Positions 15,911 to 64,000 of a stretch of 64,000 bases of DNA are shown in pieces. Each line of letters begins with the position of its first letter. Within the stretch, counting starts at the first letter, position 1. The stretch comes from Desulfobacterales bacterium (GTDB lineage: Bacteria > Desulfobacterota > Desulfobulbia > Desulfobulbales > JAGXFP01). The notes beneath the pieces were generated by a model. It worked only from the letters and a program-made list of their open reading frames with translations. It did no database searches and had not been told where the DNA came from. The stretch is taken from the NCBI GenBank assembly GCA_024637225.1, contig JAGXFP010000074.1, positions 1 to 64,000 on the forward strand, given 5' to 3'. A program made the position numbers and the translations under genes.

Positions 15911-15973
15911 CGCCCCTTACAGCTGTCCTTAAGTCCCTACCCTTGCAGCTTGCAGCTTGAACCTGTCCTTAAG
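15911..15973 (-). repeat. TTCAAGG/GGACAG array, copy 1
   Basis: Read on the minus strand it contains TTAAGGACAG followed by TTCAAGC and TGCAAGC units, then a second TTAAGGACAG block. It lies in the oleA-oleB gap and, unlike the other copies, is not directly at a stop codon. Confidence 0.65.
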
Positions 15974-16083: not shown

Positions 16084-16133
16084 ACTTTTCGATGCGTGGT
16101 AAACCGGCATATCAACCATTTCTGAGTCACAAA

Positions 16134-16192
16134 GTCTTTAACCTTGAACCTTGTAGCTTGCACCTGTCTTAACCTTGTACCTGTCCTTACCC
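16134..16192 (-). repeat. TTCAAGG/GGACAG array behind oleA
   Basis: On the minus strand the array begins three bases after the oleA stop: GTAAGGACAGGTACAAGG, then further AAGGTTAAGACAG, TGCAAGC and AAGGTTCAAGG units. Same family and orientation as the arrays behind six other minus-strand genes in the window. Confidence 0.8.
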
Positions 16193-16194
16193 GT

Positions 16195-17229
16195 TCACCA
16201 TTCTATACCGAGCATCAGACAGTTGATGCCGCTGCCGATGCCGAGCACCGCCGCCTTTTCACCTGCTTTGAGCCGGCCCTCTTCGATGCCCAGGGCCATG
16301 GTAATCGGGGCTGAAACCGAGCCTACATTGCCGAGCCGGGCCAGGGTCTCATAATTGCGGCTCTGATCGAGCCCGAGGCTTTCGAAAAGAAGACGGGCAT
16401 GGGCCGAGCCCACCTGATGACAGAAAAAACTGGTAATGGCCTCGGCACTCCATTCTGATTCGGCCAGGAAATCCCGCCAGGTTTCAGAGGCCGTTTCAAC
16501 CCCTCGTTTAAGGAGCTCCTCGGAATCGGTGGCCATCAGGGTTCCGGAGGCGGAAACCTGGCCGCCTTGACAGAGGTCATTGAACGAGGTTTTGGCGCGA
16601 TAAGTCGCGTTGATCAGGCGATGCCCGTGGTCCGGGTGTCCGGCACCGCCCATCACCAGAGCCACAGCGCCGGAGCCGATCGTCAACGAGGCAAAACTGT
16701 TTTTGATGCTTTTCCGGGTCACGGTCGGATTGTCCAGCAGGTCGGCAATGGTCGATTCGACCAGTTCCTCGGCGGTCTCGCCGGAAACGATCAGACCATT
16801 GGCGACCACCCCAAGTTCGATCATCCCGCCCAGGGTCACCATCCCGTTCAAAAAACCGAGGCAGGCGTTGGAAATATCGTAAACCAGACATTTTTCTGGC
16901 AGCCCCAGCTGGCGGTGGACAAAGGTGGCAGTGGCCGGTTCCATCATATTCCGGCTGACTCCGGTAAAAAAAAGGCACTCAAGCTCGGCCGGATCGATCC
17001 CCGCTGCCGCGATCGCCTTTCTGCCGGCCAGAACCGCCCCGTCGCTGGGCCGCATGCCTTCATCCCAGAAGCGCCGTTCCTTGATTCCGGACATCATTTC
17101 AAGACGGCCGGGGGGCAGCTTCAGACGTTGGTAAAGCGGGGACAGCCGCTCTTCGAGCTGCGCCGAAGTTACCACCCGGGGCGGCAGTTCGTAACCGAAA
17201 CCATGGAGCCGGACCTTGTTGAACTTCAT
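16195..17229 (-). CDS. oleA: OleA-like head-to-head acyl condensing enzyme
   Basis: 344 residues, thiolase superfamily of the KAS III kind. Active-site positions match characterised Xanthomonas OleA in kind and spacing: E97 in MMEPAT, C123 in DISNACLGFLNG, H271 in CHQVGSAH and N301 in LGNVGSVSAP (the reference residues are Glu117, Cys143, His285 and Asn315, with the same 26- and 30-residue gaps). OleA joins two fatty acyl thioesters to a 2-alkyl-3-keto acid, the first committed step to long-chain olefins. Its ATG shares a base with the stop of the upstream FabI-like gene, so it is the end of a tight operon ACP-flavoproteins-reductase-oleA. Confidence 0.94.
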   Translation of the reverse strand: MKFNKVRLHGFGYELPPRVVTSAQLEERLSPLYQRLKLPPGRLEMMSGIKERRFWDEGMRPSDGAVLAGRKAIAAAGIDPAELECLFFTGVSRNMMEPATATFVHRQLGLPEKCLVYDISNACLGFLNGMVTLGGMIELGVVANGLIVSGETAEELVESTIADLLDNPTVTRKSIKNSFASLTIGSGAVALVMGGAGHPDHGHRLINATYRAKTSFNDLCQGGQVSASGTLMATDSEELLKRGVETASETWRDFLAESEWSAEAITSFFCHQVGSAHARLLFESLGLDQSRNYETLARLGNVGSVSAPITMALGIEEGRLKAGEKAAVLGIGSGINCLMLGIEW

Positions 17230-25028: not shown

Positions 25029-25118
25029 AATATTGAGCCCACTTATTTTTATAGCGTCACCACGAGGAGCGACAAGACGGGAATTCCGGTCTCCCCCCTC
25101 ACTCCTAACCCCTCATCT

Positions 25119-25242
25119 ATCCTTAAACCTTGAACCTTGCAGCTGAAATTAACCTGTCCTCAACCGCGGTTAGAAGTTGTCTTATAACTTGAGGCTTTCA
25201 GCTTGAAGCTTGCGGCTGTCCTCAACCTTGAACCTGTCCTTA
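25119..25242 (-). repeat. TTCAAGG/GGACAG array behind the sugar-phosphate transferase
   Basis: On the minus strand the TAA stop of the gene is itself the start of the array: TAAGGACAGGTTCAAGG, then TTGAGGACAG, GCAAGC, TTCAAGC and more distal units up to about 25119. Same family as at 16134, 38258, 39190, 50100, 60354 and 62880. Confidence 0.8.
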
Positions 25243-25800
25243 ATGCGAAACCCCTTCCCGCGCCACTATCTTCAAAAAGGTGCGCCACAATATCCGCAGA
25301 TCAAAGCACAATGAGCGCCGGTGCAGATACTCCGCATCGAGCTGCACCTTCTCGGGGATCGGCAGTTCGTCCCGCCCGTTAATCTGGGCCCAGCCGGTCA
25401 AGCCCGGCATCAGTTGATCCACGCCGTATCGGGTGCGCAAGGCAATCAGATCTTCCTGATTGAACAGGGCCGGCCGCGGGCCGACAAAGCTCATGTCGCC
25501 CCTGAAGATGCTCCATAACTGGGGCAGTTCGTCCAGGCTGGACCTGCGGAGAAAGGTGCCTATCGGAGTGAGGTGCGCAGCCGGATCGGCAAGCAGATGC
25601 GTCGCCACCGCCGGGGTACCCACCCGCATGCTGCGAAACTTGGGCATCCTGAAAATCCGGTTATGCCGCCCGACCCGGTTGGACCAGTATAAAACCGGCC
25701 CCGCGGAGGTCAGCTTAACCAGCAAGGCCACCAGGACAAGCGGCAGCGCCAGGACCAACGCGGCCGGAACGGCCAGAATAAGATCAAAGACTCTTTTCAT
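25240..25800 (-). CDS. Initiating sugar-1-phosphate transferase (WcaJ/PglC type)
   Basis: 186 residues from the ATG at 25800, the short PglC-like form. An N-terminal re-entrant helix (KRVFDLILAVPAALVLAL) is followed by the catalytic core: FRMPKFRSMRV, RRSSLDELPQLWSIFRGD with the Asp-Glu dyad, SFVGPRPAL and PGLTGWAQINGR. It moves a sugar-1-phosphate from UDP-sugar to undecaprenyl phosphate to start the repeat unit. A GTG at 25836 would add 12 residues; the ATG start matches the family better. Neighbours suggest UDP-D-QuiNAc as donor. Confidence 0.92.
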   Translation of the reverse strand: MKRVFDLILAVPAALVLALPLVLVALLVKLTSAGPVLYWSNRVGRHNRIFRMPKFRSMRVGTPAVATHLLADPAAHLTPIGTFLRRSSLDELPQLWSIFRGDMSFVGPRPALFNQEDLIALRTRYGVDQLMPGLTGWAQINGRDELPIPEKVQLDAEYLHRRSLCFDLRILWRTFLKIVAREGVSH

Positions 25801-25953
25801 GCAAAACCTGTTATCCGCGACGCAATCCTTCGTCACCAGAAGACAACTTCAAACCGAGCTATGTCCGGGGTCCTGAAAATAAGCTCAATAACATCCCGAT
25901 TTTCTATAAAAGTCGCCAAAGACTTGATAAACTCGCAAAAAATGATTTGCTAC

Positions 25954-26040
25954 GTCATTGCGAGGAGCAAAGCGACGAAGCAATCCAGTGTTTTCAGCTT
26001 ATTACATCTTTCTGGATTGCTTCGCTACGCTCGCAATGAC
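25954..26040. repeat. TCATTGCGAGGAG element with inverted ends
   Basis: Left end GTCATTGCGAGGAGCAAAGC and right end GCTACGCTCGCAATGAC, with GAAGCAATCCAG / CTGGATTGCTTC inside, forming an 87-base inverted structure. Further copies or pieces: 40730-40810, 49090-49125, 62649-62710. This type is widespread in delta-proteobacterial intergenic DNA. Confidence 0.8.
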
Positions 26041-37242: not shown

Positions 37243-38320
37243 TGCAGTAAATCTCTTTCGAATCGCGAATCATGTGAACAATTTTTTTTCATCACTATTA
37301 ATTAGGAAATAGTCATATAAATTAGTGCCGGTAGTGGCGAATATAAATCTCCTGGCGCCAAACGGCCAGGACCGGGCGAGACCTGAAACATCCCGGCACA
37401 CGCGTCTTGCTAGTCGCAGTTTGAGTTTCCCGGAGCTGATGAACTTTGAGGTGCAAATGCGCCCGGTACAAACGCGCGCCAACAAAAAACAGGATGACAG
37501 AAGCATAGCTGTAAGCGGCCATTTTGGGGCTAAAACAGGTTGATCAAGCATAGGCCAGCACCGCAACCAAAATCAAGCGGCTCAAGAGGGAAGAGGCTGT
37601 CAGAAAGCCAAATTGGGGTAAAGTTCTTCGAGTTGCAGCTTGGAGCTCACTAACTCAAAGGCGAGCTGGCCCAGCACATGGAAAGACAATATCAATAAAA
37701 ATGCCGCCGATAGTGATCAAGCGGACTAGCAGTAACAGCAATACGGTTGCAGTACTGCAAAACCTATAAAACGGAACGAGCCATTAAGCCAGCGCATGAC
37801 CCGCCAGCCTTTGTCCGAAGCCTTTCAGCCAATATTGCGAAATGCCGAATTCTGCCAAAGGTAGTAAACCGCTCTGACCAGCCTTTTTTAGCTGTCATAA
37901 TTACATAAGGGAAAGAGGCCTGATATCCCCTTGGCAGATTCGGTTCAAATTGGTCCACATATCTAAAAAATACCGCCCCGTCCATGACCCAGCTTTTATC
38001 AAGGTGGCAGGCTGGCCCCTGACATGGCTCTCCCAGTGGAAGAGATCTGTCGGGTTAACTCTTCAGAATTTCACAAGTATTATCGGTCGATCCATCATCC
38101 CGGATGATAAGCTCAACCCGCGGGTAGTCCTGGGCAAGAACGCTGTCGATGGATTCCCGAAAGTAACCAGCGGCATTGAAGACGGGGATTACGATGGAGA
38201 CTAGGGTCTGGTCGTCGGCGGCACTGTTCATATGTTTCTCAAGAGTTATTCTTTAAACTAAAACTTAAAGCTTGAAGCTTCCCCCTTGAAGCTGTCTTTA
38301 CCTTGGCAGTCCTTATACCC
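37243..38320. other. Decayed upstream end of the O-antigen cluster
   Basis: About 1.08 kb without an intact gene. It contains a truncated GT2 start (38055-38231), a 73-codon open stretch at 37764-37985 (minus) without clear similarity, and hydrophobic fragments on the minus strand around 37322-37566 that could be remains of a membrane protein such as a polymerase. The stop-adjacent repeat array of the next gene occupies the last 65 bases. I read it as gene wreckage. Confidence 0.55.
38055..38231 (-). pseudogene. Truncated GT2 glycosyltransferase
   Basis: 58 codons from an ATG at 38231. The peptide has the unmistakable GT2 opening: LVSIVIPVFNAAGYFRESID, then VLAQDYPRVELIIRDDGSTD, and ends at a TAA where about 200 further residues would be expected. 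It lacks the catalytic half. It is probably left over from a glycosyltransferase once belonging to the cluster. Confidence 0.85.
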
Positions 38321-38322
38321 TT
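38258..38322 (-). repeat. TTCAAGG/GGACAG array behind the first beta-barrel gene
   Basis: On the minus strand, from the TAA stop: TAAGGGTATAAGGACTG, AAGGTAAAGACAGC, TTCAAGG, AAGCTTCAAGC and TTTAAG units. The family's order of elements is kept although individual units are degenerate. Confidence 0.7.
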
Positions 38323-38944
38323 AGAAAGAATACCTCATGCCGGCATAGATGTTATGTGATGCATATTCCACTTCCCCGTTTGCAAATTCGGCATTGGTGG
38401 TGGCGAAATAGCGATACTTGCCTTCAAGGGTGATTTCCTCGTTGACGGCGTAGCCAAGTCCGGCGCCGAACTGATAGGCAAAAACAGTGGCGGAATCGTT
38501 ACCCAGGTAAGCGGTATTGTCATCGACATTGATCAATGCTGCGCCCAGACCGGCGCTCAAATACGGGGTCCAAAAGGACCTGTTGGTAAAATCCCAGTAC
38601 CCGTTCACCAGAAAAGCAAGACTGTCGATGTTGTCGTGCAAAGATACATTCCCAACGGTTGTACTGACCTTATCCAATGCATTGTTCTGGTAGGCGATTT
38701 CAGCCTCTATCCTGGGGAAACCATAAAAATCATATCCCAATGCCGCCCCAACCGCAAAACCGGTATCCGCTTCGACTGTAAAATCCGTGGTCGAGGCTTT
38801 CGAGTTAGAGACCTCGGCATCGCTGAAGAGGCCAAGGCCAAAAAAGCTGGCACTTAGATAGGTCTTCTCTTCGGCGCCATAGGCACTGGTTGTGAGAGAA
38901 AGCAGCATGATGCATCCGGAAATAATAAATATATTTCTCTTCAT
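38321..38944 (-). CDS. Outer-membrane beta-barrel protein, copy 1
   Basis: 207 residues from the ATG at 38944, where a signal peptide starts (MKRNIFIISGCIMLLSLTTS, then AYGAEE); an upstream in-frame start at 39004 would bury it. Alternating strands follow and the protein ends in Phe (NIYAGMRYSF), the usual C-terminal signal for barrel assembly. About eight strands, like small OmpW/Opa-type barrels. It is a close paralogue of the next gene. Function unknown; adhesion or small-molecule passage are common for the fold. Confidence 0.85.
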   Translation of the reverse strand: MKRNIFIISGCIMLLSLTTSAYGAEEKTYLSASFFGLGLFSDAEVSNSKASTTDFTVEADTGFAVGAALGYDFYGFPRIEAEIAYQNNALDKVSTTVGNVSLHDNIDSLAFLVNGYWDFTNRSFWTPYLSAGLGAALINVDDNTAYLGNDSATVFAYQFGAGLGYAVNEEITLEGKYRYFATTNAEFANGEVEYASHNIYAGMRYSF

Positions 38945-39189
38945 AATGTCTCCTGTTTTTTTGATCGCCTTGCCAGATATTCTGATGGGATTTTCCTTGA
39001 GCACAGTGCCAAGCTTCCCCTGTAAAAATCAGAGAGTATAGCATGTTACGTCTGGTCAGTCCAGAATAGTGTAGCGGTCTTAGATCAACTCAACTTTCCG
39101 GGTTGTGATATTAGCTTGAAAGCTGCAAGCTGAAAGGTACCAAGTGGCAAACGGGCAAGCCGCAAGTCAAAAGTTAAAATCGCCCCTCG

Positions 39190-39249
39190 TACAGCTATCC
39201 TTCCTTGCCTTAACCTTGAAGCTTGAGGCTTGAAGCTGCTCTTAACCTA
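39190..39249 (-). repeat. TTCAAGG/GGACAG array behind the second beta-barrel gene
   Basis: On the minus strand it begins at the TAG stop: TAGGTTAAGAGCAGC, TTCAAGCC, TCAAGC, TTCAAGG, TTAAGG. Upstream of both barrel genes there is a different shared block (CAAGCTGAAAG ... GTCAAAAGTTAAA at about 39127-39178 and 40016-40050), so the duplication included flanking DNA. Confidence 0.7.
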
Positions 39250-39861
39250 AAAAGAATACCTGACGCCGGCATAGACGTTATGGGTTCGATATTCGGTTTC
39301 TCCGCTATCGAATTCAGGATTGGTGGTGGCAAAATAGCGATACCTGCAGTCAACGGTAATCACTTCGTTGACGGCGTAAGCGATACCGGTGCTGATCTGA
39401 AAGGCAAAAACCGTGGCTGAATCGTCGCCCAGGTAAGCGGTATCGTCATCGACATTGATCATGGCCAGGCCGAGACCGCCACCCAGAAACGGGGTCCACC
39501 GGGAATCGTTTGCAAAATCCCGATAGCCGTTTATCAGGACAGCAAAACTGTCAATATCGTCGGACAAAGCTGCATCGCCACCGGCTGTAGTTGCCTGGTC
39601 CAAGGTATTGTTGTGGTAGACGAATTCACTCTCTATCCTGGTGTTATCAAACTCATAACCCACTGCCGCGCCGAGGCCGTAGCCGGTGTTCGCCTCGATA
39701 TCATAATTAGCGGCGGAGGCGTCCGAGCCGGTGACTTCGGCATCACTGAAGAAGCCAACACCCAGATTAGCGCTTAAATAGAGGGTGTCGGTGGCACTGT
39801 AGGCGCTGGTGGATAGCGAAAGTAGCATGACGCACACGGCAATAGATATCTTTTTCTTCAC
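39247..39861 (-). CDS. Outer-membrane beta-barrel protein, copy 2
   Basis: 204 residues with a signal peptide (MKKKISIAVCVMLLSLSTSA, then YSATD) and C-terminal Phe (HNVYAGVRYSF). It matches copy 1 along its whole length, including VNGYRDFAN, INVDDDTAYLGDDSATVFA and YRYFATTNPEF. Tandem duplication with divergence at surface-loop positions. Role unknown. Confidence 0.85.
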   Translation of the reverse strand: MKKKISIAVCVMLLSLSTSAYSATDTLYLSANLGVGFFSDAEVTGSDASAANYDIEANTGYGLGAAVGYEFDNTRIESEFVYHNNTLDQATTAGGDAALSDDIDSFAVLINGYRDFANDSRWTPFLGGGLGLAMINVDDDTAYLGDDSATVFAFQISTGIAYAVNEVITVDCRYRYFATTNPEFDSGETEYRTHNVYAGVRYSF

Positions 39862-40869
39862 AAAAGTTCTCCCGCTTCTTTCGGCGGCTGGCCGAATATT
39901 TTCAAGGAAATTATCCCTAAACAGAATGGCTTGCCTGCCTTTTCGATTACCGCATCATCACACTTTATTTTTTACAATTTCGCTATAAAATTTTTCTGAT
40001 ACCGCGTGAAGGGGCAAGCTGAAAGCCGCCAGTCAAAAGTCAAAAGTTAAAGTCGTAAACAAAACGGCTCCTCCTATTTCAGGTTGTCCGGCCAGATCGG
40101 ACCGTCTTTCAATTTAACGATATCACCATGAATGCGAACCCTTTTCGCGAGCACGATAATCGGTCTTAGGAGGGATGGGAAAGTCCGAAACCATTCCCGA
40201 AATTTACTTCATCGCTATTCGGAATATAGCTGGAGCCGCTGGCGGGTAGGGGGAACCCTACTTTTAGCTGCCTTGAATGGGGGGTAACCCCTACCGAATA
40301 TCCCGCTTCATGATTTTGTTTTATTTTATGGTTGCGAGGCCGTTTTTTATTGGCTATAAACAATAGTCATTACTGTTTTTCTTACGCAGCCCTGAAGCAT
40401 GCTTTAATGTTCGCTCTCATCCGCTGTTTTCGGGTTTCCTCGCGTTTACTTGCAGTTCAGAATTTTCAATCTCAAGTTTGTTCACACTTTCATATATTCC
40501 ACCGGGTCAAAGTTCCCGTTAGAGGGATCCTGCGCCCGAAAAGAAATTCTAGGCACTTTAACCGGCAGGGAACAGGCAACCGCGTGCCATCCCTTACTCT
40601 TCGCCCCGCCTCGGATGGCCTGGTCTTGCAGGGGTTTTCCCGGCCAAGTTTTATCTTAATGGCGTCGCCATCTCCAGATTTTTGCGAGTTTGTTATATTT
40701 TGCCGAATTGGCAAAAACTGACTTTGTACATCATTGTGAGGAGCGAGGCGACAAGACAATCCAGTAAATAATTCGATGTTTTCGGATTTGTTCGCCAGCC
40801 TCGCAATGAGCTATAGCCGTCACGGATTCAGGAATAATCAAGAGGAGAACCCTTTACCGGGGGGTAATA
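39862..40869. other. Long intergenic region with possible structured RNA and repeats
   Basis: 1.0 kb between divergent genes. Around 40134-40310 there are several nested inverted repeats: GCGAA/TTCGC, GGGAA/TTCCC, GGTAGGGG/CCCCTACC. A short open minus-strand stretch ending at a TAG near 40078 looks protein-like at its end (KLKDGPIWPDNLK) but has no start. A TCATTGTGAGGAG element is at 40730-40810. Open frames on the plus strand at 40332-40721 do not look like protein. The wecA-like gene's ribosome binding site (GGGGGG-rich, 40859-40865) closes the region. Confidence 0.45.
40730..40810. repeat. TCATTGCGAGGAG element, degenerate copy
   Basis: TCATTGTGAGGAGCGAGGCG, ACAATCCAG and a terminal GCCTCGCAATGAG reproduce the inverted layout of 25954-26040 with several changes. 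Confidence 0.65.
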
Positions 40870-46965: not shown

Positions 46966-47042
46966 TTACACCCACAGGGCATAAGTTTCGTTTGCACCCA
47001 AAAGGGCATATAAAGCAGACAAGCTGCTTAACTCAGCTTTAA
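46966..47042 (-). repeat. GGGCATAAG repeat, left of ctpA
   Basis: About 77 bases, reverse complement of the repeat right of ctpA (48466-48543) with few differences: CACAGGGCATAAGTTTCGTT, AAAAGGGCATATAAAGCAGA and CAAGCTGCTTAACTCAGC. It sits between envC and ctpA, where a ctpA promoter would be expected. Confidence 0.85.
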
Positions 47043-47075: not shown

Positions 47076-48467
47076 ATGCGCTTAAAAAGGATGTCAACCT
47101 TCAAGAAAACTTTATTAACCGTCATCATCGTCACACCGATGCTGGCCGTGACCATGTGGCCCAACGGCAGCGACGCCGACGCCAAACCACACGACACTTA
47201 CAAGAGCCTTGAAATTTTCTCGAACGTCTTGAGCCTCATCCAGAAAAACTATGTCGAAAGCGTCGATGTAACCGAAGTTCTCCAGGGCGCGATCAAGGGG
47301 ATGCTCACCTCCCTCGATCCCCATTCCTCCTATATGAAACCTGACGACTTCAGGGAACTCAAACTGGAAACCAAGGGCAGCTTCACCGGCATCGGTATCG
47401 AGATCACAATCCGGGATTCGGCCCTCACCGTAGTTTCACCGATCGAGGATACTCCCGGCGACCGCGCCGGTCTTAAGGCGGGAGACAAGATCGTCAAGAT
47501 CGAGGGCGAGCTTACCAAGGACATGACCCTGATGGAGGCCGTCAAAAAGATGCGCGGCCCCAAGGGAACCACGGTCAATATCTCGGTTTATCGCGATGGG
47601 TGGACCGATCTGGAGGATTACGCCATCGTCCGGGACGTGATCCCGCTGTTAAGCGTTCGCCACAAGATTCTGGCCCCTGGATACGCCTACATCCGCATAA
47701 CCAACTTCCAGAGCAAGACTTCAAGCGATTTCCAGAAGGCCCTTGAGGAGATCAGCGGACAAGGCAGGATATCCGGTCTGATCCTTGATCTACGCAACAA
47801 TCCGGGCGGGCTCCTCTCCCAGTCCGTAAAGGTTTCGGATGTCTTCATCGATGAAGGGGTTATCGTCTCTACCAAGGGACGCATTGAAGACCAGAACACC
47901 ACCTATGAAGCGCGGTCGAGCTGGACCAAATACGAATTCCCGATAGTGGTACTGGTCAATGAAGGCAGCGCCAGCGCTTCGGAGATCGTCGCCGGCGCCC
48001 TCCAGGATCACAAAAGGGCACTGGTCGTCGGCACCCAGACCTTCGGCAAAGGCTCGGTTCAGACCATTATTCCGATGAGTAACGGCGCCGGTCTGCGTTT
48101 AACAACCGCTCGTTATTATACGCCGAGCGGTCGTTCCATCCAGGCCAAGGGTATCGAACCGGACATTCTGGTCGAGAAAATCACCCCGCCCGAAAAAGAT
48201 GAAGACAAGAAGTCCCCGTCATTTCTGCGGGAAATTGACCTCAGGCATCATATAGAAAACGGTGACGAGAAGAAGAAAGTCGAAGAAGAAAAGAGTGAGG
48301 TCAACGACACGGATATAAACAAAACCACCAAGGAAAAGGCGGACGAGGAAGCCAGGGAAATCGAAGAACAACTCTTCCAGGACAACCAGCTGCGAACCGC
48401 CCTGATGTTGCTGAGAGGGTTGAACGTCTACTCCGATTTCAAACCAGCTGCCGCCGAGGCCGAATAA
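47076..48467 (+). CDS. ctpA: Carboxy-terminal processing protease CtpA (S41)
   Basis: 463 residues. An N-terminal membrane anchor or signal (about 9-28), PDZ domain about 100-180 (TGIGIEITIRDSALTVV, PGDRAGLKAGDKIVKI), then the S41 core with LDLRNNPGGLLSQSV, catalytic Ser300 in EGSASASEIVAG and Lys325 in QTFGKGSVQT; the 25-residue spacing is that of the family. The tail after about 395 is highly charged. CtpA trims periplasmic proteins, in several bacteria wall hydrolases; its place after ftsEX-envC fits control of wall cutting. The stop codon lies at the edge of a repeat. Confidence 0.94.
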   Translation: MRLKRMSTFKKTLLTVIIVTPMLAVTMWPNGSDADAKPHDTYKSLEIFSNVLSLIQKNYVESVDVTEVLQGAIKGMLTSLDPHSSYMKPDDFRELKLETKGSFTGIGIEITIRDSALTVVSPIEDTPGDRAGLKAGDKIVKIEGELTKDMTLMEAVKKMRGPKGTTVNISVYRDGWTDLEDYAIVRDVIPLLSVRHKILAPGYAYIRITNFQSKTSSDFQKALEEISGQGRISGLILDLRNNPGGLLSQSVKVSDVFIDEGVIVSTKGRIEDQNTTYEARSSWTKYEFPIVVLVNEGSASASEIVAGALQDHKRALVVGTQTFGKGSVQTIIPMSNGAGLRLTTARYYTPSGRSIQAKGIEPDILVEKITPPEKDEDKKSPSFLREIDLRHHIENGDEKKKVEEEKSEVNDTDINKTTKEKADEEAREIEEQLFQDNQLRTALMLLRGLNVYSDFKPAAAEAE

Positions 48468-48543
48468 AGCTGAGTTGAGCAGCTTGTCTGCTTTAATATG
48501 CCCTTTTAGGGTGCGAACGAAACTTATGCCCTATGGGTATAAA
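48466..48543 (+). repeat. GGGCATAAG repeat, right of ctpA
   Basis: Starts in the ctpA TAA: AAAGCTGAGTTGAGCAGC, TTGTCTGCTTTAATATGCCC, AACTTATGCCCTATGGG. Same orientation as 50787-50834, 50943-50997 and 50998-51056; inverse of 46966-47042 and 62729-62790. Confidence 0.85.
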
Positions 48544-48944: not shown

Positions 48945-49528
48945 CAGGCTTCCCTCCTCTCCAGACTATCAGTTGCGCTTAGAAGTGAGCCAGTGGTTGT
49001 GCAGCGGCCTACCACGGTCCGCAAACGGCTGTTCGAGTACTGGTCACCGGCGTCAAAGATGACGGCGTCGCAAAAATTGCTTCGCCACCTCATTGCGAGG
49101 AGCGAAGCGACAAAGCAATCCGATGTTTTCAAGTAGTTAGATCTTCCCGGATCCAAGGCGCGCAAACTTCGAGGAATGCAGCGTACTTCAGTACGCTGCA
49201 ATGACCGAGACAATTTGCAGTTAACGCCGGAACTGGCGATTTCTGCTTAGTCATCTGCGACGCCATCATTGAAGAATAGTATACGGCCCTCCCCTCTGAT
49301 TTAATAATATTCGCCAAAAAGATAATTCGGGCGCAGCATCTTGCGCAGGCAGGACACCGCCCGGAATCCCTGAGGGTTCAAGAACGGTCCGGATTCAGGA
49401 CCGTTAACGACCGAATGGCAGCGGGAGTAGATTAACCCGGCATAATGGCATGATTGTTGTATTACAGTGTGGTATAAAGATTAACTTGATTTGAATAATA
49501 AATTTTACTTGAGCCAAGGAGTTTTGGT
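48945..49528. other. Repeat-rich intergenic region
   Basis: 584 bases. Holds a TCATTGCGAGGAG piece (49090-49125), MITE-like copy 3 (49137-49272) and a short hairpin AACGGTCC/GGACCGTT (49383-49405). The last 120 bases are A+T-rich and should contain the promoter of the DUF2318 gene; AAGGAG at 49518-49523 is its ribosome binding site. Confidence 0.6.
49137..49272. repeat. MITE-like element, copy 3
   Basis: Shows GGATCCAAGGCGCGC, GAGGAATGCAGC, the palindrome AGCGTACTTCAGTACGCT, ACAATTTGCAG and a terminal CGACGCCATCAT, as in copy 1. A TCATTGCGAGGAG element is attached on its left side, the same combination as at 25954-26221. Confidence 0.75.
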
Positions 49529-49996
49529 ATGAAAATTTCAATCAGATTGTTCCTCTTAATCGCTTTTCTGGTCACATTTGCTTATGCTTGTTCTTCAACG
49601 GAAAGCGATGCCGGCGGTGCGGATCTGATCAAGCCGGTCGACAGTCAGCTGCAGATTCCGGTCTCGGCGATAAACGACGGCAAGGCCCACCATTACCAGG
49701 TAAAAGCGGATGACGGCACCATGGTCACTTTCTTCGTCCTGAAGAGCAAGGACGGGGTAATCAGGGCGGCAATCGATGCCTGCGATGTCTGTTACAAGGC
49801 CGGCAAGGGTTATTACCAGGAAGAAGATTTTATGGTCTGTGTGAATTGTGGTCAGCGCTTTGCTTCGAACCGGATCAATATCGTGAAGGGTGGATGCAAC
49901 CCTGCTCCCCTGGACCGGGTGGTCCAAGGCGACAATCTGCTTATTGACATGAAAGATATTAATGCCAACAAATGGTACATGAAGTACCGGCAATAA
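49529..49996 (+). CDS. DUF2318-family lipoprotein with paired-Cys metal site
   Basis: 155 residues. A signal sequence with a lipobox-like end (VTFAYACSS) suggests a lipoprotein. The DUF2318 core is clear: HHYQVKADDGTMVTFFVL, AIDACDVCYKAGKGYYQEED, VCVNCGQRFASNRI and GGCNPAPL. The two Cys-x-x-Cys pairs probably hold a metal. Homologues are often beside iron transport or membrane haem proteins; no partner gene is adjacent here. Function is not established. Confidence 0.85.
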   Translation: MKISIRLFLLIAFLVTFAYACSSTESDAGGADLIKPVDSQLQIPVSAINDGKAHHYQVKADDGTMVTFFVLKSKDGVIRAAIDACDVCYKAGKGYYQEEDFMVCVNCGQRFASNRINIVKGGCNPAPLDRVVQGDNLLIDMKDINANKWYMKYRQ

Positions 49997-50099
49997 CCAG
50001 AAGCCCTTTTAAAAACAAAAACCCTTACAGCCCCGCCGCAAAGGGGCTTCAGCCGCGAAATCCCAAAATGCCTCCATGTCCAGGTCGCAGGCATTCGCA

Positions 50100-50330
50100 A
50101 CTGAAGCCCTGTCCTAACCTTGAAGCTTTTCCCCTCGCAGCTATCTTAACCTGCCCTTAAGTCCTTAAAGTCCTTAAAGTCCTTAAAGTCCTTAACCTTG
50201 CCTCTTGCAGCTGTACTTATGTCCTTAACCTTGCAGGCTTGAACCTTGCCTCTTGCGCTGTACTTATATCCTTAACCTTGAATCTTGCAGCTTGAACCTT
50301 TTACCTGCCCTTAACCCCTTGAACCTGTCC
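50100..50330 (-). repeat. Longest TTCAAGG/GGACAG array, reaching into the VanZ-like gene
   Basis: About 230 bases of TTCAAGG, GCAAGG, TTAAGGAC and AAGTACAG units (minus-strand reading), including a run of four GGACTTTAA 9-mers at 50157-50196. It crosses the TAA stop at 50301-50303 and provides the last nine codons of the gene (50304-50330). Confidence 0.85.
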
Positions 50331-50654
50331 AACCCCCCAGCCCAGCATCAACCCCAGAATGTTGGCGATCAGGTCGGTCCCGTCAGCGGCACGGCTTGGG
50401 ATGAAGATCTGCATGATTTCAACCATGGCGCCATAGGCGAACAAACCGACAAGTACCGCCGCCGCGTGCCGGGGATAAGCCTTGAGACCCAGCCAGGCCA
50501 GGACCCCAAAGGCGAGGAGATGGTTGGTTTTGTTCCAGCCTGTGGTGGCAATCCGGGAAGCAGTCGGGGTTAGGGCCAAAACCAGCACGGCGAGAGCGGC
50601 GATAAAAAAGGCCCAGGTCCATCGAGTAGACGGACTATTGTCGTTCTTGCCCAT
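50301..50654 (-). CDS. VanZ-like membrane protein
   Basis: 117 residues with four hydrophobic segments. VanZ-family marks are KTNHLLAFGVLAWLGL and the polar block MVEIMQIFIPSRAADGTDLIANILGLMLG. VanZ-like proteins give low-level glycopeptide resistance in some bacteria, but most members have no known role. The last nine residues (GQVQGVKGR) come from the repeat array, so the original C-terminus has been replaced or extended. Confidence 0.85.
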   Translation of the reverse strand: MGKNDNSPSTRWTWAFFIAALAVLVLALTPTASRIATTGWNKTNHLLAFGVLAWLGLKAYPRHAAAVLVGLFAYGAMVEIMQIFIPSRAADGTDLIANILGLMLGWGVGQVQGVKGR

Positions 50655-51300
50655 ATTGTTCCTTTAATCCGAAATGACTTTTTATCCTGAATCCGTGAGC
50701 GTCCGTTATATCAAGTATCGCCGACGCAGCAGGTCGCCCGTCGAAAGACAACGGCCTGAAATTCCTCCACCACGATGACGGATATCTAAAGCTGAGTTTC
50801 CTGCTCATACGAAACTTGTGCCCTTTGTGGTATAACCAGATTACAGGCCGCTAAGGGCAATCCTCCCAACCGACGTCCCGGATTTAAGTTTTTTGACAAA
50901 CTCTGTTTTTTGGAGAGGCAATCCGTTCATCATTGGGAATGATAAAGCTGAGGTGAGCAGCTCGAATGCTCATCCGAAACTTATGCCCTGTGGGAATAGC
51001 TGAGTTGAGCAGCTCGTCTGTCATCCGAATCTTAATACCCTTGCGGTATAATACCAGATTAACGGGCCGGGAAAGAAGGTTTAATCCGCCGTCTGCATGA
51101 TCCAACGACAATCAAACAGGGAGTCCAAGACGAAAAGAAGGTTAATCCATCGCCCACATATTGCCCGATAGGCGATTTCACGGTGTGAAACATGGAATGG
51201 TTACCGAGAACATCAAGATATCACGCCTGACTCCGGATCCCTCCGGAGTCTCGGATTGAACAGTTAAATCGGTTTTTTTGCGACGCCGCCAGGAAGGCCG
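50655..51300. other. Intergenic region with tandem GGGCATAAG-type repeats
   Basis: 646 bases with no gene. Copies of the ctpA-flanking repeat occur at 50787-50834, 50943-50997 and 50998-51056, the last two head to tail, each with GCTGAG(G/T)TGAGCAGC and a CTTATGCCC-like end. A TGAATCCGTGAGCGTCCG piece of the palindrome family is at 50690-50707. Near 51230-51256 a CTCCGGATCCCTCCGGAG hairpin can be drawn. Confidence 0.6.
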
Positions 51301-60353: not shown

Positions 60354-60379
60354 CCGCTTGTAGCTTACAGCTGTCTTTA
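60354..60379 (-). repeat. Short TTCAAGG/GGACAG-type array behind wzc
   Basis: From the TAA stop of wzc on the minus strand: TAAAGACAGCTGTAAGC then TACAAGCGG. It is the shortest member but starts exactly at the stop. Confidence 0.65.
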
Positions 60380-62587
60380 TTTATACGAATATTGATAATT
60401 ATATCGATAGCCGTTGCCCGATTGCTGAATTGGAATATCGTTGAAGATGAAGCCGTTGGGGTGGATGTTGTTCTGGGTGTAGCGCTTCAGGGCCTGCTGG
60501 ATCTCCGCCATCGGATGCTGACCGGATTTCAGGATGATGAAATTGAGGCCGCAGAGGCGGGCGATGATGGTGGCGTCGGTGACGGCCAGGATCGGCGGAG
60601 TATCGATGATCACCAGGTCGTAACCTTCGGCCAGGTCATGGAGGATTTTCTGGAACCGCTCGTTCATCAGGAGTTCGGAGGGATTGGGGGGGATGATCCC
60701 GCAGGGGATGAGATCCAGGTGCTCATGGCTGGTCCGATGGATTGCGTTATCCTGCAAGACCTCGCCGCTGATCAGGCCGGAGAGGCCGCCGGTGCGGGTC
60801 ATCCCGAAATATTCGTGGAGATGGCCCTTGCGCATGTCGCCGTCGATCAGGAGGATGCGCTTGCCGCTGTCGGCCAGGATGGCGGCGAGATTGGCGGCAA
60901 CGAAGCTCTTGCCGATATTCGGAGCGGGGCCGCCGAAACTGACGATATTGTTGGGGGCGTCGAGCATGGCGAACTGGAGACTGGTCCGCAGACTGCGCAG
61001 GCTTTCCACGGCGATATCATTGTTGTCGACCCTGGCCAGGAGGAAGTCATCGCCGGTCCCGCCCTTTTTCTTCCGGGCCAGGGCTTCCAGCTCTTCCTGT
61101 TTTTTACTGTGTGAAATCGTGGCATAGACCGGCAGGCCGAGGGCCGTTTCAACAAGATTGGGGTCTTCGACCCCGCGCCGGAAAGATTGCCGGATAAAAA
61201 CGGCCGCGATCCCGCCCATCAGGCCGAGGAGAAAACCCAGGACCAGGATCATCTTTTTATTGGGTTTGGCGGCCCGGCCCGGCAGAACCGGCGGATCGAT
61301 GATCCGGACATTGCCGGTGGTGCCCGCCTTGACCACCTTCATCTCCTGGGCCTTGTTGAGCAGGAGGATATAGAGCTCGTTGGCCACCTTGACGTCCCGC
61401 TGCAGGCGGACCGCCTCCAGGATCTCGACCGGCATCTCCCGGATCTGCTCGTTCAGCTCGGCAAGCTTGGCCTCCAGCTGCTGCTGCTGCTGGCGCAGGG
61501 TGACCATGGCCGGGTGACTGGCGGTAAATTTCTCGGCCAGGGTGGCCTGTTGAAGTCTGAGCTCGGAGAGCTGCTTTTCAACCTCGGCGTTCGCTTCAAG
61601 AATACTCTGGGTTTCCAAAGAAAGGTCGATGCTGCCCTTCTCGGATTTATAGGCCTTGAGCCGGGTTTCTGCTGCGTCCAGGTCGGCTTTCAGGCTGGGC
61701 AGCTGGCGATTGAGGAATTCCAGGGTCTTTTCCGCCTCGGCAGAGCGTTTCTCGATATCCTGGCGCAGATAGCTGGTGGCGATGGACTGGAGAATGCGGG
61801 TCAACTTTTCCGGTTCCGGACTTTCCAGACTGATTTCGATAATGCCGGTCTGCTTGCCCTGCTCGGCCACATGGAGATTCTCCTGCAATGCGCCGATTAC
61901 GCTCCCCCGCGGCAGAAGCGAAACCAAAAAACCGGTTTCCGGCCGGGCCGTCAGCGCCGCGACGAAGATCTCCACCCCATGCTCACCACTGGCGGCGGTA
62001 ACCCCGACTTGACCGGTCAGCACGACGGTATTCTCGGGAGAATAAAGGGTGAAACTTCCCTCCTCGCCGGCGACCAGAGCAAGCGGCTCTCCCTCCCAGC
62101 TCCCGGGAACGACCAACCGTTGAACCAGGATCTCCTCACCGCCCCAGGCGAAACTATCGAGCCCGAACAGGGCCGGGTGCGGTCCTTCTTCGGGGTCATT
62201 GGTCAGGCGGCGGGCCAGGGGCCTGCCCAGCAGCGGGAAATAAGCCGGTTCTGCCACAAGATTCAACTGCAATTCATCCACCGCCGCCCCGATCACCGAA
62301 CGGGACTTGATGATCTCAATCTCGGTCGCCGCTTCGCTTGCCGTATTCATCAGGCCGGAGAGCGCATCCAAGCCGGTGATGCCGCCGCCCTTGGTCTCAA
62401 CCTGAATCAGGGTATCGCCCCGGTAGATCGGGGGAGCGAGAAAGATATAGATCAGGGCTCCGATCACGGCCAACAGAGTAATGGCGGCGACCAACCATTT
62501 AGAGTTTAAAAGGATGGCCACCATCTGATCGAGGTCGATTTCATCGTCGGCTGGAGCCGGGGTTGTATTGATATTATGTTCTGGCAT
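60377..62587 (-). CDS. wzc: Polysaccharide co-polymerase and BY-kinase (Wzc type)
   Basis: 736 residues. Wzz domain with the first membrane helix at about 32-52 and the second near 440-460 after the Pro-rich PPVLPGRAAKPNKK; coiled coil about 270-400. The kinase domain has Walker A GGPAPNIGKSF, Walker A' LLIDGDMR and Walker B VIIDTPP, and the C-terminal Tyr cluster (GYRYNYQYSYK) for autophosphorylation. It controls chain length and couples Wzy to Wza. It follows wza by 335 bases of repeats. Confidence 0.94.
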   Translation of the reverse strand: MPEHNINTTPAPADDEIDLDQMVAILLNSKWLVAAITLLAVIGALIYIFLAPPIYRGDTLIQVETKGGGITGLDALSGLMNTASEAATEIEIIKSRSVIGAAVDELQLNLVAEPAYFPLLGRPLARRLTNDPEEGPHPALFGLDSFAWGGEEILVQRLVVPGSWEGEPLALVAGEEGSFTLYSPENTVVLTGQVGVTAASGEHGVEIFVAALTARPETGFLVSLLPRGSVIGALQENLHVAEQGKQTGIIEISLESPEPEKLTRILQSIATSYLRQDIEKRSAEAEKTLEFLNRQLPSLKADLDAAETRLKAYKSEKGSIDLSLETQSILEANAEVEKQLSELRLQQATLAEKFTASHPAMVTLRQQQQQLEAKLAELNEQIREMPVEILEAVRLQRDVKVANELYILLLNKAQEMKVVKAGTTGNVRIIDPPVLPGRAAKPNKKMILVLGFLLGLMGGIAAVFIRQSFRRGVEDPNLVETALGLPVYATISHSKKQEELEALARKKKGGTGDDFLLARVDNNDIAVESLRSLRTSLQFAMLDAPNNIVSFGGPAPNIGKSFVAANLAAILADSGKRILLIDGDMRKGHLHEYFGMTRTGGLSGLISGEVLQDNAIHRTSHEHLDLIPCGIIPPNPSELLMNERFQKILHDLAEGYDLVIIDTPPILAVTDATIIARLCGLNFIILKSGQHPMAEIQQALKRYTQNNIHPNGFIFNDIPIQQSGNGYRYNYQYSYK

Positions 62588-62609
62588 GTTTTTTTAAGGA
62601 TAGATTAAA

Positions 62610-62922
62610 AATTCAAGGTTCAAGGTTAAGGACAGGTACAAGGGACATAGCAATTCAGTGCTTTTAACCAGTTACAGACTTCTGGATTGCTTTGCTTCAC
62701 TCGCAATGACAACTCCTGGTTTATTTTACTTATACCCACAGGTCATGAGTTTCGTACGAGTAGACAAACTGCTCAACCCGGCTTTATTTAAGCTTGCACA
62801 TATTTAGCTTAGGACACAAAGCTTGCAATGTCATTTATATTTAAACTCAATTTTCAGAGTTGCGTTTAATTCGAATCTCATCCTTCAACTTGAATCTTGC
62901 CCCTTGAACCTTGAATCTGCCC
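62610..62922. repeat. Composite repeat region between wza and wzc
   Basis: Contains an inverse TTCAAGG array (62610-62644: TTCAAGGTTCAAGG, TTAAGGACAG), a TCATTGCGAGGAG piece (62649-62710), an inverse GGGCATAAG repeat (62729-62790) and a forward TTCAAGG array directly at the wza stop (62880-62925; minus strand TAAGGGCAGATTCAAGG). Three of the window's repeat families meet here. Confidence 0.75.
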
Positions 62923-64000
62923 TTAATCCGTCCAGTCGTCGATCAGGGAATTGGTCTGCCAGATGGTCTGAACCGTGGGCAGGATCTTGCCGACAATCCG
63001 GTTCCAGACGGTCAGGCCGGTCGGGGCGACGTAGACGACATCGTGTTTTTCCAGGTTGAAAGTCGTGGCCAGGAGCAGGGCGTCTGCCGAGTTGGCGTCG
63101 AGCCGGTAGGCCATGGCCTGGCCGTCCTCGTTTCGGAAGACGAAGATCTGGCCGGCGTCGGCGTTGTCGCTGCTGATCCCGCCACTTCGGCTGAGGGCGT
63201 CGGCCAGGCTGAGGCGTTGATGGACCATCGGCACCGCCATCGACTCGCTGACCTCGCCCATGACATAGACGTTATTATCGGTATTGTCCGGGACGTAGAG
63301 CTGATCGCCGGCCTGAAGGACCATCGGGGCCGGATTACCCTGCCGGTAAAAGGAGAGGAGATCGATCCGGAAGACCTCCCCTCCCCGGCTTAGCCTGAGC
63401 TCGCGCAGATCGGCAAGCTCAGTGGGACCGCCGGCCAGGTTGATCGCCTCCAGGAGGGTCAGGGGCCGATCGGTCAGGGCGATGATATTGGGGCTTTTGA
63501 CCTCGCCGGCAACCACTATTTTTTTGCTGCGGAAATCGGCGACCCGCAGGTCGATCTGGGGATTCTTGATGTACTGGCTCAGCTTTTCGGCCAACAGGGC
63601 GCGGAGCTCGGCCACGGTCAGGCCGGCCACCTCGATCTCGCCGACATATGGATAGAAAATTTTGCCCCGGGCATCAACCAGATTTCCGGCCAACTCAGGA
63701 GAACGGAACTCACCGGCCGGGATGGTCAGTTCGGGATGGTCCCAGACGGTGACGGTCAGGATGTCGCCTGGGCCGATGATGTATTCCCCGGCAATCGCCG
63801 GTTCAGACGAGAAGGCCGAAGCGGGGGCAGTGCGAGTCAAGCGTTCGGCCTGCTGCCGGGCGACCAGCTCGGCAGTGATCGGAATCAAAGGGGTGATTTC
63901 GCTTTTCTTTTCCGCCGCCTCCACCGGGGCTTTACCCAGGTCGCCTTCGTTAAGCCGGTGGCCGGGGGCCCAGGCGCAGCCGGACAGGGAAGAGAGCGTG
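62923..64000 (-). CDS. wza: Outer-membrane polysaccharide export lipoprotein (Wza type), 5' end beyond the window
   Basis: At least 359 residues; the frame is open to the right edge and includes a lipobox-like SLSGCAW about eight residues in, so only the signal start is missing. The Poly_export domain begins at YIIGPGDILTVTVWDHPELT, followed by two SLBB-type domains (IVVAGEVKSPNIIAL and VYVMGEVSESMAVPM). It forms the outer-membrane exit channel that works with Wzc. The GTG at 63924 is an internal codon, not the start. Confidence 0.93.
   Translation of the reverse strand, partial: TLSSLSGCAWAPGHRLNEGDLGKAPVEAAEKKSEITPLIPITAELVARQQAERLTRTAPASAFSSEPAIAGEYIIGPGDILTVTVWDHPELTIPAGEFRSPELAGNLVDARGKIFYPYVGEIEVAGLTVAELRALLAEKLSQYIKNPQIDLRVADFRSKKIVVAGEVKSPNIIALTDRPLTLLEAINLAGGPTELADLRELRLSRGGEVFRIDLLSFYRQGNPAPMVLQAGDQLYVPDNTDNNVYVMGEVSESMAVPMVHQRLSLADALSRSGGISSDNADAGQIFVFRNEDGQAMAYRLDANSADALLLATTFNLEKHDVVYVAPTGLTVWNRIVGKILPTVQTIWQTNSLIDDWTD

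Follow-up and report, generated by a model that had tools for sequence, protein, structure and literature searches.

The locus studied here raises the question of whether a repeat array lying between genes can become the end of a protein and provide its stop codon. The window, i.e., the whole stretch of DNA analysed, comprises 64,000 nucleotides (nt) of a Desulfobacterales bacterium (contig JAGXFP010000074.1 of assembly GCA_024637225.1, forward-strand positions 1 to 64,000; GTDB order Desulfobulbales), and in it a VanZ-like gene on the minus strand runs directly into an array of imperfect heptamers. The window's genome (G000; 3.28 Mb, 74 contigs, 87.9% complete) was compared in particular with a sister species of the same genus (G001) and with a third species (G002). 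A sequence-only reading had proposed that the array forms the last codons of the VanZ-like gene; the pattern found extends beyond that proposal, about half of the detected arrays beginning at stop codons in sense orientation.

The array-encoded end of the VanZ-like gene

The features of the locus are as follows.

50301-50654, minus strand: VanZ-like gene, 117 amino acids (Pfam PF04892, 43.9 bits, residues 37-108; NCBIfam NF037970, 31.3 bits, residues 39-101)
50301-50330, minus strand: array-encoded C-terminus GQVQGVKGR and TAA stop, from the sequence (the detector segment begins at 50330)
50108-50330, minus strand: whole VanZ array, with leader-type units, CAAGNNN heptamers and a 9-mer block (array detector)
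50155-50195, minus strand: near-perfect 9-mer sub-array, AAGGACTTT on the minus strand, 4.7 copies, 96% matches (Tandem Repeats Finder)
50022-50109, minus strand: strong hairpin (arms 50044-50059 and 50094-50109), then an intrinsic-terminator-like stem with a T run (50022-50044); fold z -3.55 for 50020-50160

The Pfam score of the 117-residue open reading frame (ORF) exceeds the VanZ gathering score of 30.1 bits, and its NCBIfam match is vanZ_1. Because both matches end earlier, GQVQGVKGR lies outside the VanZ domain core. Read on the minus strand, positions 50301-50330 are GGA CAG GTT CAA GGG GTT AAG GGC AGG TAA, and these 30 nt are the first part of an unbroken 223-nt array with a detector score of 178.9. 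Positions 50297-50314 (minus strand) are one of the two-mismatch matches to TTAAGGRCAGGTTCAAGS returned by the genome search described below, and the stop codon is the TAA of GGTAAAAGG, directly after a TTAAGG word which is itself out of frame and read as GTT AAG GGC. The array sequence encodes both the tail and the stop of the VanZ-like protein. The sequence-only reading, which had assigned the last nine codons and the TAA to repeat units, is borne out by the minus-strand reading, by the continuity of the array and by the 41 genomic matches against 5 for the reversed pattern.

That reading had also held that a non-coding repeat had here become coding, and had proposed a comparison with close orthologues. 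No VanZ match at E ≤ 1e-3 was found in two same-genus and two same-family genomes (86-96% complete), while nine other matches at E ≤ 1e-6, 28-36% identical, were found among 257 genomes of the order. Seventeen homologue loci were inspected, 12 of which gave usable alignments and five none. In these 12 distant homologues (26-40% identity) the aligned core is followed by tails of 9-36 residues that are mutually unrelated, none of them GQVQGVKGR; given such variation, both the length and the presence of the VanZ tail are normal. The array does encode the tail and stop, but with no close orthologue the change itself is not demonstrable in this gene; the proposal was right in kind, and partly supported, while unproven for VanZ. 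By analogy with MqnA and Maf, described below, capture of the repeat by the VanZ-like gene is plausible, in a direction that we infer.

Beyond its first 30 nt, the array may tentatively be regarded as a 3′ untranslated part of the VanZ transcript. RNA structure of the array itself was rejected, since it shows no folding beyond that of shuffled sequences (z +0.80). The hairpin and terminator-like stem at 50022-50109 are possibly the end of this transcript, a weak assignment because terminator-like sites are about equally frequent in shuffled sequences (three in 49400-51200 against 2.4 expected).

Stop codons replaced or shifted in orthologue pairs

Sixteen gene ends were considered, and 13 were compared between species, two of the 13 having no orthologue shown. 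The names PurH, PurN, Maf, endonuclease III, NorD, ABC permease and cytochrome were read from the sequences without family search. The gene at C28:16986-17882 matches the Pfam family VitK2_biosynth, which we take to be MqnA, and no NCBIfam family. Its G001 orthologue, 88% identical, ends in ALPLKIATSPFGVV, followed by TGA, 15 nt, TTAAGGGCAGG and the array. In G000, a 21-nt alignment gap removes the G001-type stop, and the frame enters the array and ends in IATSTGSRLRTGSRSKIQGSS with a TAA, so that about 17 residues and the stop are supplied by the array. Counted by hand, 21 residues follow the LPLK-like motif in G000 and nine in G001; among the other family members, 19 of 23 end at most five residues past this motif and 4 of 23 within 7-11. 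For this survey, 25 of the 37 genomes with a match were inspected (for GalE, 10 of 22 rows).

The Maf gene offers a second case. Its G001 protein ends in RPVEE, with a TGA and the array directly next, and in G000 a 10-nt gap changes this end to RPVS and a TAG which lies within TTAGGACAG. No array was found within 87 nt 3′ of the Maf stop in G002 and G003. In the alignments of both pairs, the predicted stop codons are demonstrably shifted. These two comparisons support the proposal that stop codons can be set or moved by an array, and GalE (C30:65061-66044; TIGR01179) is consistent with it: its last codons, GCT AAA GAC AGG TTC AAG CTA TAG, are array words, whereas WHQ tails of comparable length are found in the three nearest rows (64-67% identity). 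At nine other gene ends with an array-free orthologue, the end of the G000 protein differs by no more than about two residues from that of at least one orthologue, which indicates that the array usually adjoins the native end and does not alter it. As a separate observation, the G001 orthologue of the gene at G000:C39:6642 (locus L314) carries an extension of about 10 residues ending in LGVRG, with GTGAGGGGT-like words, a TAG and then GGGTAAGGACAG.

Composition and distribution of the repeat family

The repeat family consists of imperfect CAAGNNN heptamers whose trinucleotide varies, together with 8- and 9-mer blocks; TTAAGGACAGG often stands at the head. The common unit CAAGGTT holds only GG, and some arrays hold GGG or GGGG units (by reading, uncounted). 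Judged by eye, the arrays differ in length and share no 3′ boundary. Blocks of identical units occur, for example (TTCAAGG)n and then (GACAAGG)n at C9:20485-20593. With up to three mismatches, TTAAGGRCAGGTTCAAGS has 41 matches in the 3.28-Mb G000 genome and its reversed pattern five, which rules out a chance likeness of the units; a known Rfam family was likewise discarded, with no matches at gathering thresholds in the window.

Searched with three mismatches, the same 18-mer gave 18 matches against 6 for the control in G001, 16 against 6 in G002, 18 against 9 in G003 and 11 against 9 in G004, and most matches outside G000 and G001 may be due to chance. The 19-mer TAAGGACAGGTTCAAGGTT, with at most one mismatch, was found in three of 257 genomes of the order, namely G000 (six), G001 (three) and G151 (one lone match). 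The broader class of four tandem CAAGNNN units is present in 32 of 252 genomes of the order, with 13 forward and 42 reverse matches in G000 and 247 matches in G029, of the same order, against 55 in G000; the reversed-pattern control for this class is not independent, because (GTTCAAG)n matches the reversed pattern too. A 17-mer scan of wider genome contigs returned 52 stretches, approximately the random expectation for that size by our own estimate. Five of the 52 are contigs of Desulfobulbales bacterium C14-07, from which all three loci with at least five array words nearby derive; loci L141 and L147 have four words.

An array detector trained on unit matches, including the VanZ array (threshold 25, best control score 22.1), identified 58 arrays in the fetched regions, 56 in G000 and G001 and two in G002. 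Of the 41 heptamer arrays read from the G000 and G001 regions fetched, none lies wholly within a called ORF; those at VanZ, MqnA and GalE of G000 extend over the end of the gene. Several contigs end in, or at most 5 nt from, heptamer arrays (G000:C57:2-103, G000:C9:23073-23136 and the ends of G205:C15, G038:C337 and G202:C83); assemblies probably break at such sites, so that arrays are undercounted.

Anchoring of arrays at stop codons

Of the 56 arrays in G000 and G001, 27 start within -35 to +12 nt of a same-strand stop codon (TAA at 11, TGA at 10 and TAG at 6). Random intergenic placement gave a mean of 1.26 and a maximum of 6 in 5000 trials, and placement within each array's own gap gave a mean of 1.5 and a maximum of 7 against 25 observed (51 usable arrays). 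With the strand flipped, no array of the 56 fell within -35 to +12 and two fell within the wider interval of -60 to +30, where 28 were observed. Maf and the sugar transferase are each counted for both species among the 27, which exclude G000 MqnA, a gene that ends 70 nt into its array. Array 3′ ends show no similar association with sense gene starts (0/41 within -60 to +20, 2/41 within -60 to +60). Roughly half of the arrays detected in these two species are anchored at stop codons.

That anchoring is entirely an artefact of TAA-holding search words was rejected: when arrays were located by the TAA-free pattern of four CAAGNNN units and bounded by CAAG only, 11 of 25 still began within -35 to +30 (null mean 1.6, maximum 6). 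A general tendency of the order's CAAGNNN arrays to be anchored is unsupported, since 51 heptamer arrays in other Desulfobulbales showed no group bias (six at sense stops against two, eight and four at the other boundaries, within -60 to +20). In G029 (locus L234), three of the six arrays that were read lie within -60 to +20 nt of a sense stop, so that anchoring may exist in this genome; one of the three is contained entirely in a called ORF, and coding capture may therefore also take place in G029. The idea that arrays are seeded by Shine-Dalgarno-like GGAG at stops was prompted by the ends of the PurH and ABC permease genes; GG after stops was counted in 10/27 against 11/143, a count confounded by the arrays themselves.

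Besides the VanZ array, the array detector identified the following in the window.

16124-16192, minus strand: array about 3 nt past the TGA of a ketoacyl-ACP synthase III-like gene (16195-17229, minus strand)
15912-15973, minus strand: second array in the same gap, unanchored, 222 nt from the sense stop
25109-25246, minus strand: two array segments, 25185-25246 and 25109-25167
38264-38324, minus strand: array holding the TAA of ORF 38321-39004 (minus strand)
39190-39252, minus strand: array at the TAG of ORF 39247-39861 (minus strand)
62791-62928, minus strand: array holding the TAA of a polysaccharide export gene (62923-64059, minus strand, contig coordinates; the gene start is outside the window)
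62592-62676, plus strand: counter-example, an array of opposite orientation lying 5′ of, and antisense to, ORF 60377-62587 (minus strand)

In segment 25185-25246, the leader TTAAGGACAGG holds the TAA of the sugar transferase gene (25240-25836, minus strand), and the same junction occurs in G001:C219.

Gain, loss and facing arrays

Five gene ends carry an array in both species, those of Maf, MqnA, the sugar transferase, PurH and C9:15547, and the units at the shared sites differ between G000 and G001. At C34:185145 and at endonuclease III, an array is present in G000 and none within 87 nt past the same stop in G001; the C34:185145 junction reads TAA CAGG|TTCAAGG in G000 and TAA CAGGATGG in G001. 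At the cytochrome gene end of G001, a different repeat stands directly after the stop and the array only 107 nt downstream, and in the G001 orthologue of C34:185399 (locus L322) the stop is followed by a different heptamer, GTGAGGG. In G002 and G004 PurH and PurN lie 9-10 nt apart, whereas in G000 and G001 they are separated by a 95-nt spacer filled with facing arrays; the G003 spacer is 74 nt long and array-free, for which reason spacer length alone is no proof of insertion. The PurH-PurN insert of G000 forms a predicted stable hairpin and folds better than shuffled sequences (z -3.23), and two other window arrays fold weakly (z -1.73 and -0.67). Facing array pairs, one per strand, were observed between genes at locus L179 (G000:C5, 6745-6839) and, also in G000, at C34:185137-185394, C9:20327-20593, C57:4711-4867 and C30:64848-65086.

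Origin of the array-made gene ends

The best explanation, which we consider probable, is that a slippage-prone array abuts stop codons and that indels at the junction exchange the old stop and last residues for those of the array. CAAGNNN arrays, often led by TTAAGGACAGG, would in many cases adjoin the 3′ end of a gene in its own orientation, and would lengthen and shorten, most simply via replication slippage, which would account for the unit differences at shared sites and for the blocks of identical units. With the array next to the stop codon, a small junction-spanning indel could delete the old stop and join the reading frame to the array. The frame would continue to the next in-frame stop within the array, the repeat thereby writing a short C-terminal tail and a stop; GQVQGVKGR in VanZ and the other array-made ends in MqnA, Maf and GalE would be the results. 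Such tails are presumably tolerated rather than useful.

Several points weigh against this explanation. No array-bearing outgroup fixes the direction of the indels in MqnA and Maf, and VanZ, lacking a close orthologue, gives no view of the passage from non-coding to coding sequence. The presence of one leader at the stops of many unrelated genes is not accounted for by slippage alone. As regards anchoring, 29 of the 56 arrays are unanchored, as are both G002 arrays, which were excluded from the 56; the 27 anchored arrays contain two orthologous pairs (Maf and the sugar transferase), and the window array at 62592-62676 (plus strand) is a clear exception. A weaker and smaller test with the word AAGGTTCAAGGTT gave 4/13 (null mean 0.55, maximum 4). 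Some selection remains, many regions having first been fetched by TAA-bearing words, and the genes were called by our own codon-score script in regions around word matches, so that the counts are neither exhaustive nor fully unbiased.

Selection, rather than slippage next to stops, might have placed the arrays there in sense orientation as 3′-end elements for transcription termination, mRNA stability or shielding against convergent transcription, coding capture being a side effect. Sense-only anchoring, the five gene ends that carry arrays in two species, the facing pairs and the folding of the PurH-PurN insert would fit this alternative, which is nevertheless unlikely: the VanZ array is without structure beyond shuffles and two other window arrays are weak in this respect, presence is unstable (C34:185145 and endonuclease III), and the genes appear functionally unrelated. 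We regard as quite improbable a mobile or copied element which inserts at stop codons, in a manner recalling the reported insertion of MIRUs (see below) at start codons, and then decays into heptamer arrays. A similar leader, GGACAGGTTCAAGG, directly follows the stops of unrelated genes, and both the short array-free PurH-PurN spacers of G002 and G004 and the C34:185145 junction have the appearance expected of insertion; however, the arrays have neither a defined 3′ end nor a constant length, their units vary between blocks, G001 has GTGAGGG after the stop of the C34:185399 orthologue, and the 74-nt G003 spacer holds no array. That the VanZ ending is a native tail resembling the array by chance is hardly credible. 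VanZ homologues do show short basic tails of varied sequence, but the 30 nt run unbroken into the array and match units found genome-wide, and the tail is absent from all 12 usable homologues.

Beyond the slippage at stop junctions favoured here, there is a modest chance that the arrays constitute a sense-oriented repeat system of this lineage, stop-targeting or stop-selected, that keeps genes supplied with new C-termini and stop codons. If so, the same array would rewrite gene ends repeatedly throughout the genome, and the VanZ, MqnA and GalE tails would be snapshots of this process.

Comparison with known repeat systems

Mycobacterial interspersed repetitive units (MIRUs) have defined element ends, unlike the present arrays of varying length and without a common 3′ boundary by eye. 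According to the available part of PMC12548453, MIRUs resemble these arrays in being interspersed, in lying at gene boundaries and in interacting with reading frames, and their sites of insertion are start codons, an internal ORF being coupled at -4 nt; start-codon insertion is not matched here, as seen from the scarcity of gene starts near array 3′ ends. The other comparisons likewise refer to the available parts of the papers cited. The closest likeness is to the heptamers GGGAATC of Xanthomonas and GGGGA(C/T)T of Nostoc, which are intergenic and stop-proximal on the coding strand (PMC4692102): both they and the arrays described here have a seven-base tandem unit and a stop-proximal position in sense orientation between genes, and the paired inverted repeats of Xanthomonas have a counterpart in the facing pairs (PMC4692102). 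In contrast to them, the unit here is CAAGNNN with a variable trinucleotide and a TTAAGGACAGG leader, the commonest units hold only GG, although some arrays do hold G-tracts of three or four, the kind that may form G-quadruplexes in the Xanthomonas and Nostoc type, and the arrays are imperfect and include 8- and 9-mer blocks. Replacement of stop codons by an array in orthologue pairs is unreported for Xanthomonas and Nostoc in the available part of PMC4692102.

The TAACTGA heptamers of Beggiatoaceae are also direct repeats spread genome-wide, but they lie mostly just upstream of start codons, with 13 cases overlapping an upstream stop, and their forward repeats have stops in all frames (PMC4679880). 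Bacterial miniature inverted-repeat transposable elements (MITEs) and Rickettsia palindromic elements, which can be fused in frame to genes, are likewise intergenic repeats turned protein-coding, in one case C-terminally; they are elements of about 100-200 bp with stem-loops and mostly terminal inverted repeats, whereas those described here are tandem arrays (PMC2229807). Tandem repeats of Borgs are fused to ORFs too, but are perfect and A-rich, with a unit length divisible by three within ORFs (PMC9879509). In the open-licence literature searched, we found no report of such arrays in Desulfobulbales and nothing on repeat-driven stop codon loss or on short tandemly repeated repetitive sequences. 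Stop-proximal heptamer repeats are known already; what is new is the Desulfobulbales arrays with orthologue evidence of stop-codon replacement.

Other interspersed repeats of the window

Two further interspersed repeats were observed in the window, AAAGCTGAGTTGAGCAGCT with five copies (up to three mismatches, 0.03 expected) and CATTGCGAGGAGCGAAGCGAC with three (up to three mismatches, none in shuffled sequences).

47022-47040 (minus), 48466-48484 (plus), 50944-50962 (plus), 50996-51014 (plus), 62767-62785 (minus): copies of AAAGCTGAGTTGAGCAGCT
25956-25976 (plus), 40732-40752 (plus), 49091-49111 (plus): copies of CATTGCGAGGAGCGAAGCGAC

The AAAGCTGAGTTGAGCAGCT copies lie near copies of GAAACTTATGCCCTGTGGG, and in G001 a copy of AAAGCTGAGTTGAGCAGCT starts a few nt past the stop of the cytochrome orthologue.

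Implications

The MqnA and Maf pairs provide orthologue-level evidence that a simple tandem repeat at the 3′ end of a gene can take the place of the stop codon and final residues in conserved proteins, and the gene ends described here form a natural series for the study of stop-codon movement. For annotation, they are a warning that C-termini in such genomes may derive from repeats. Heptamers gathering at stops have been seen before, in Xanthomonas and Nostoc, and two related species that differ in whether particular genes carry an array offer an opportunity to test the cause of this gathering.
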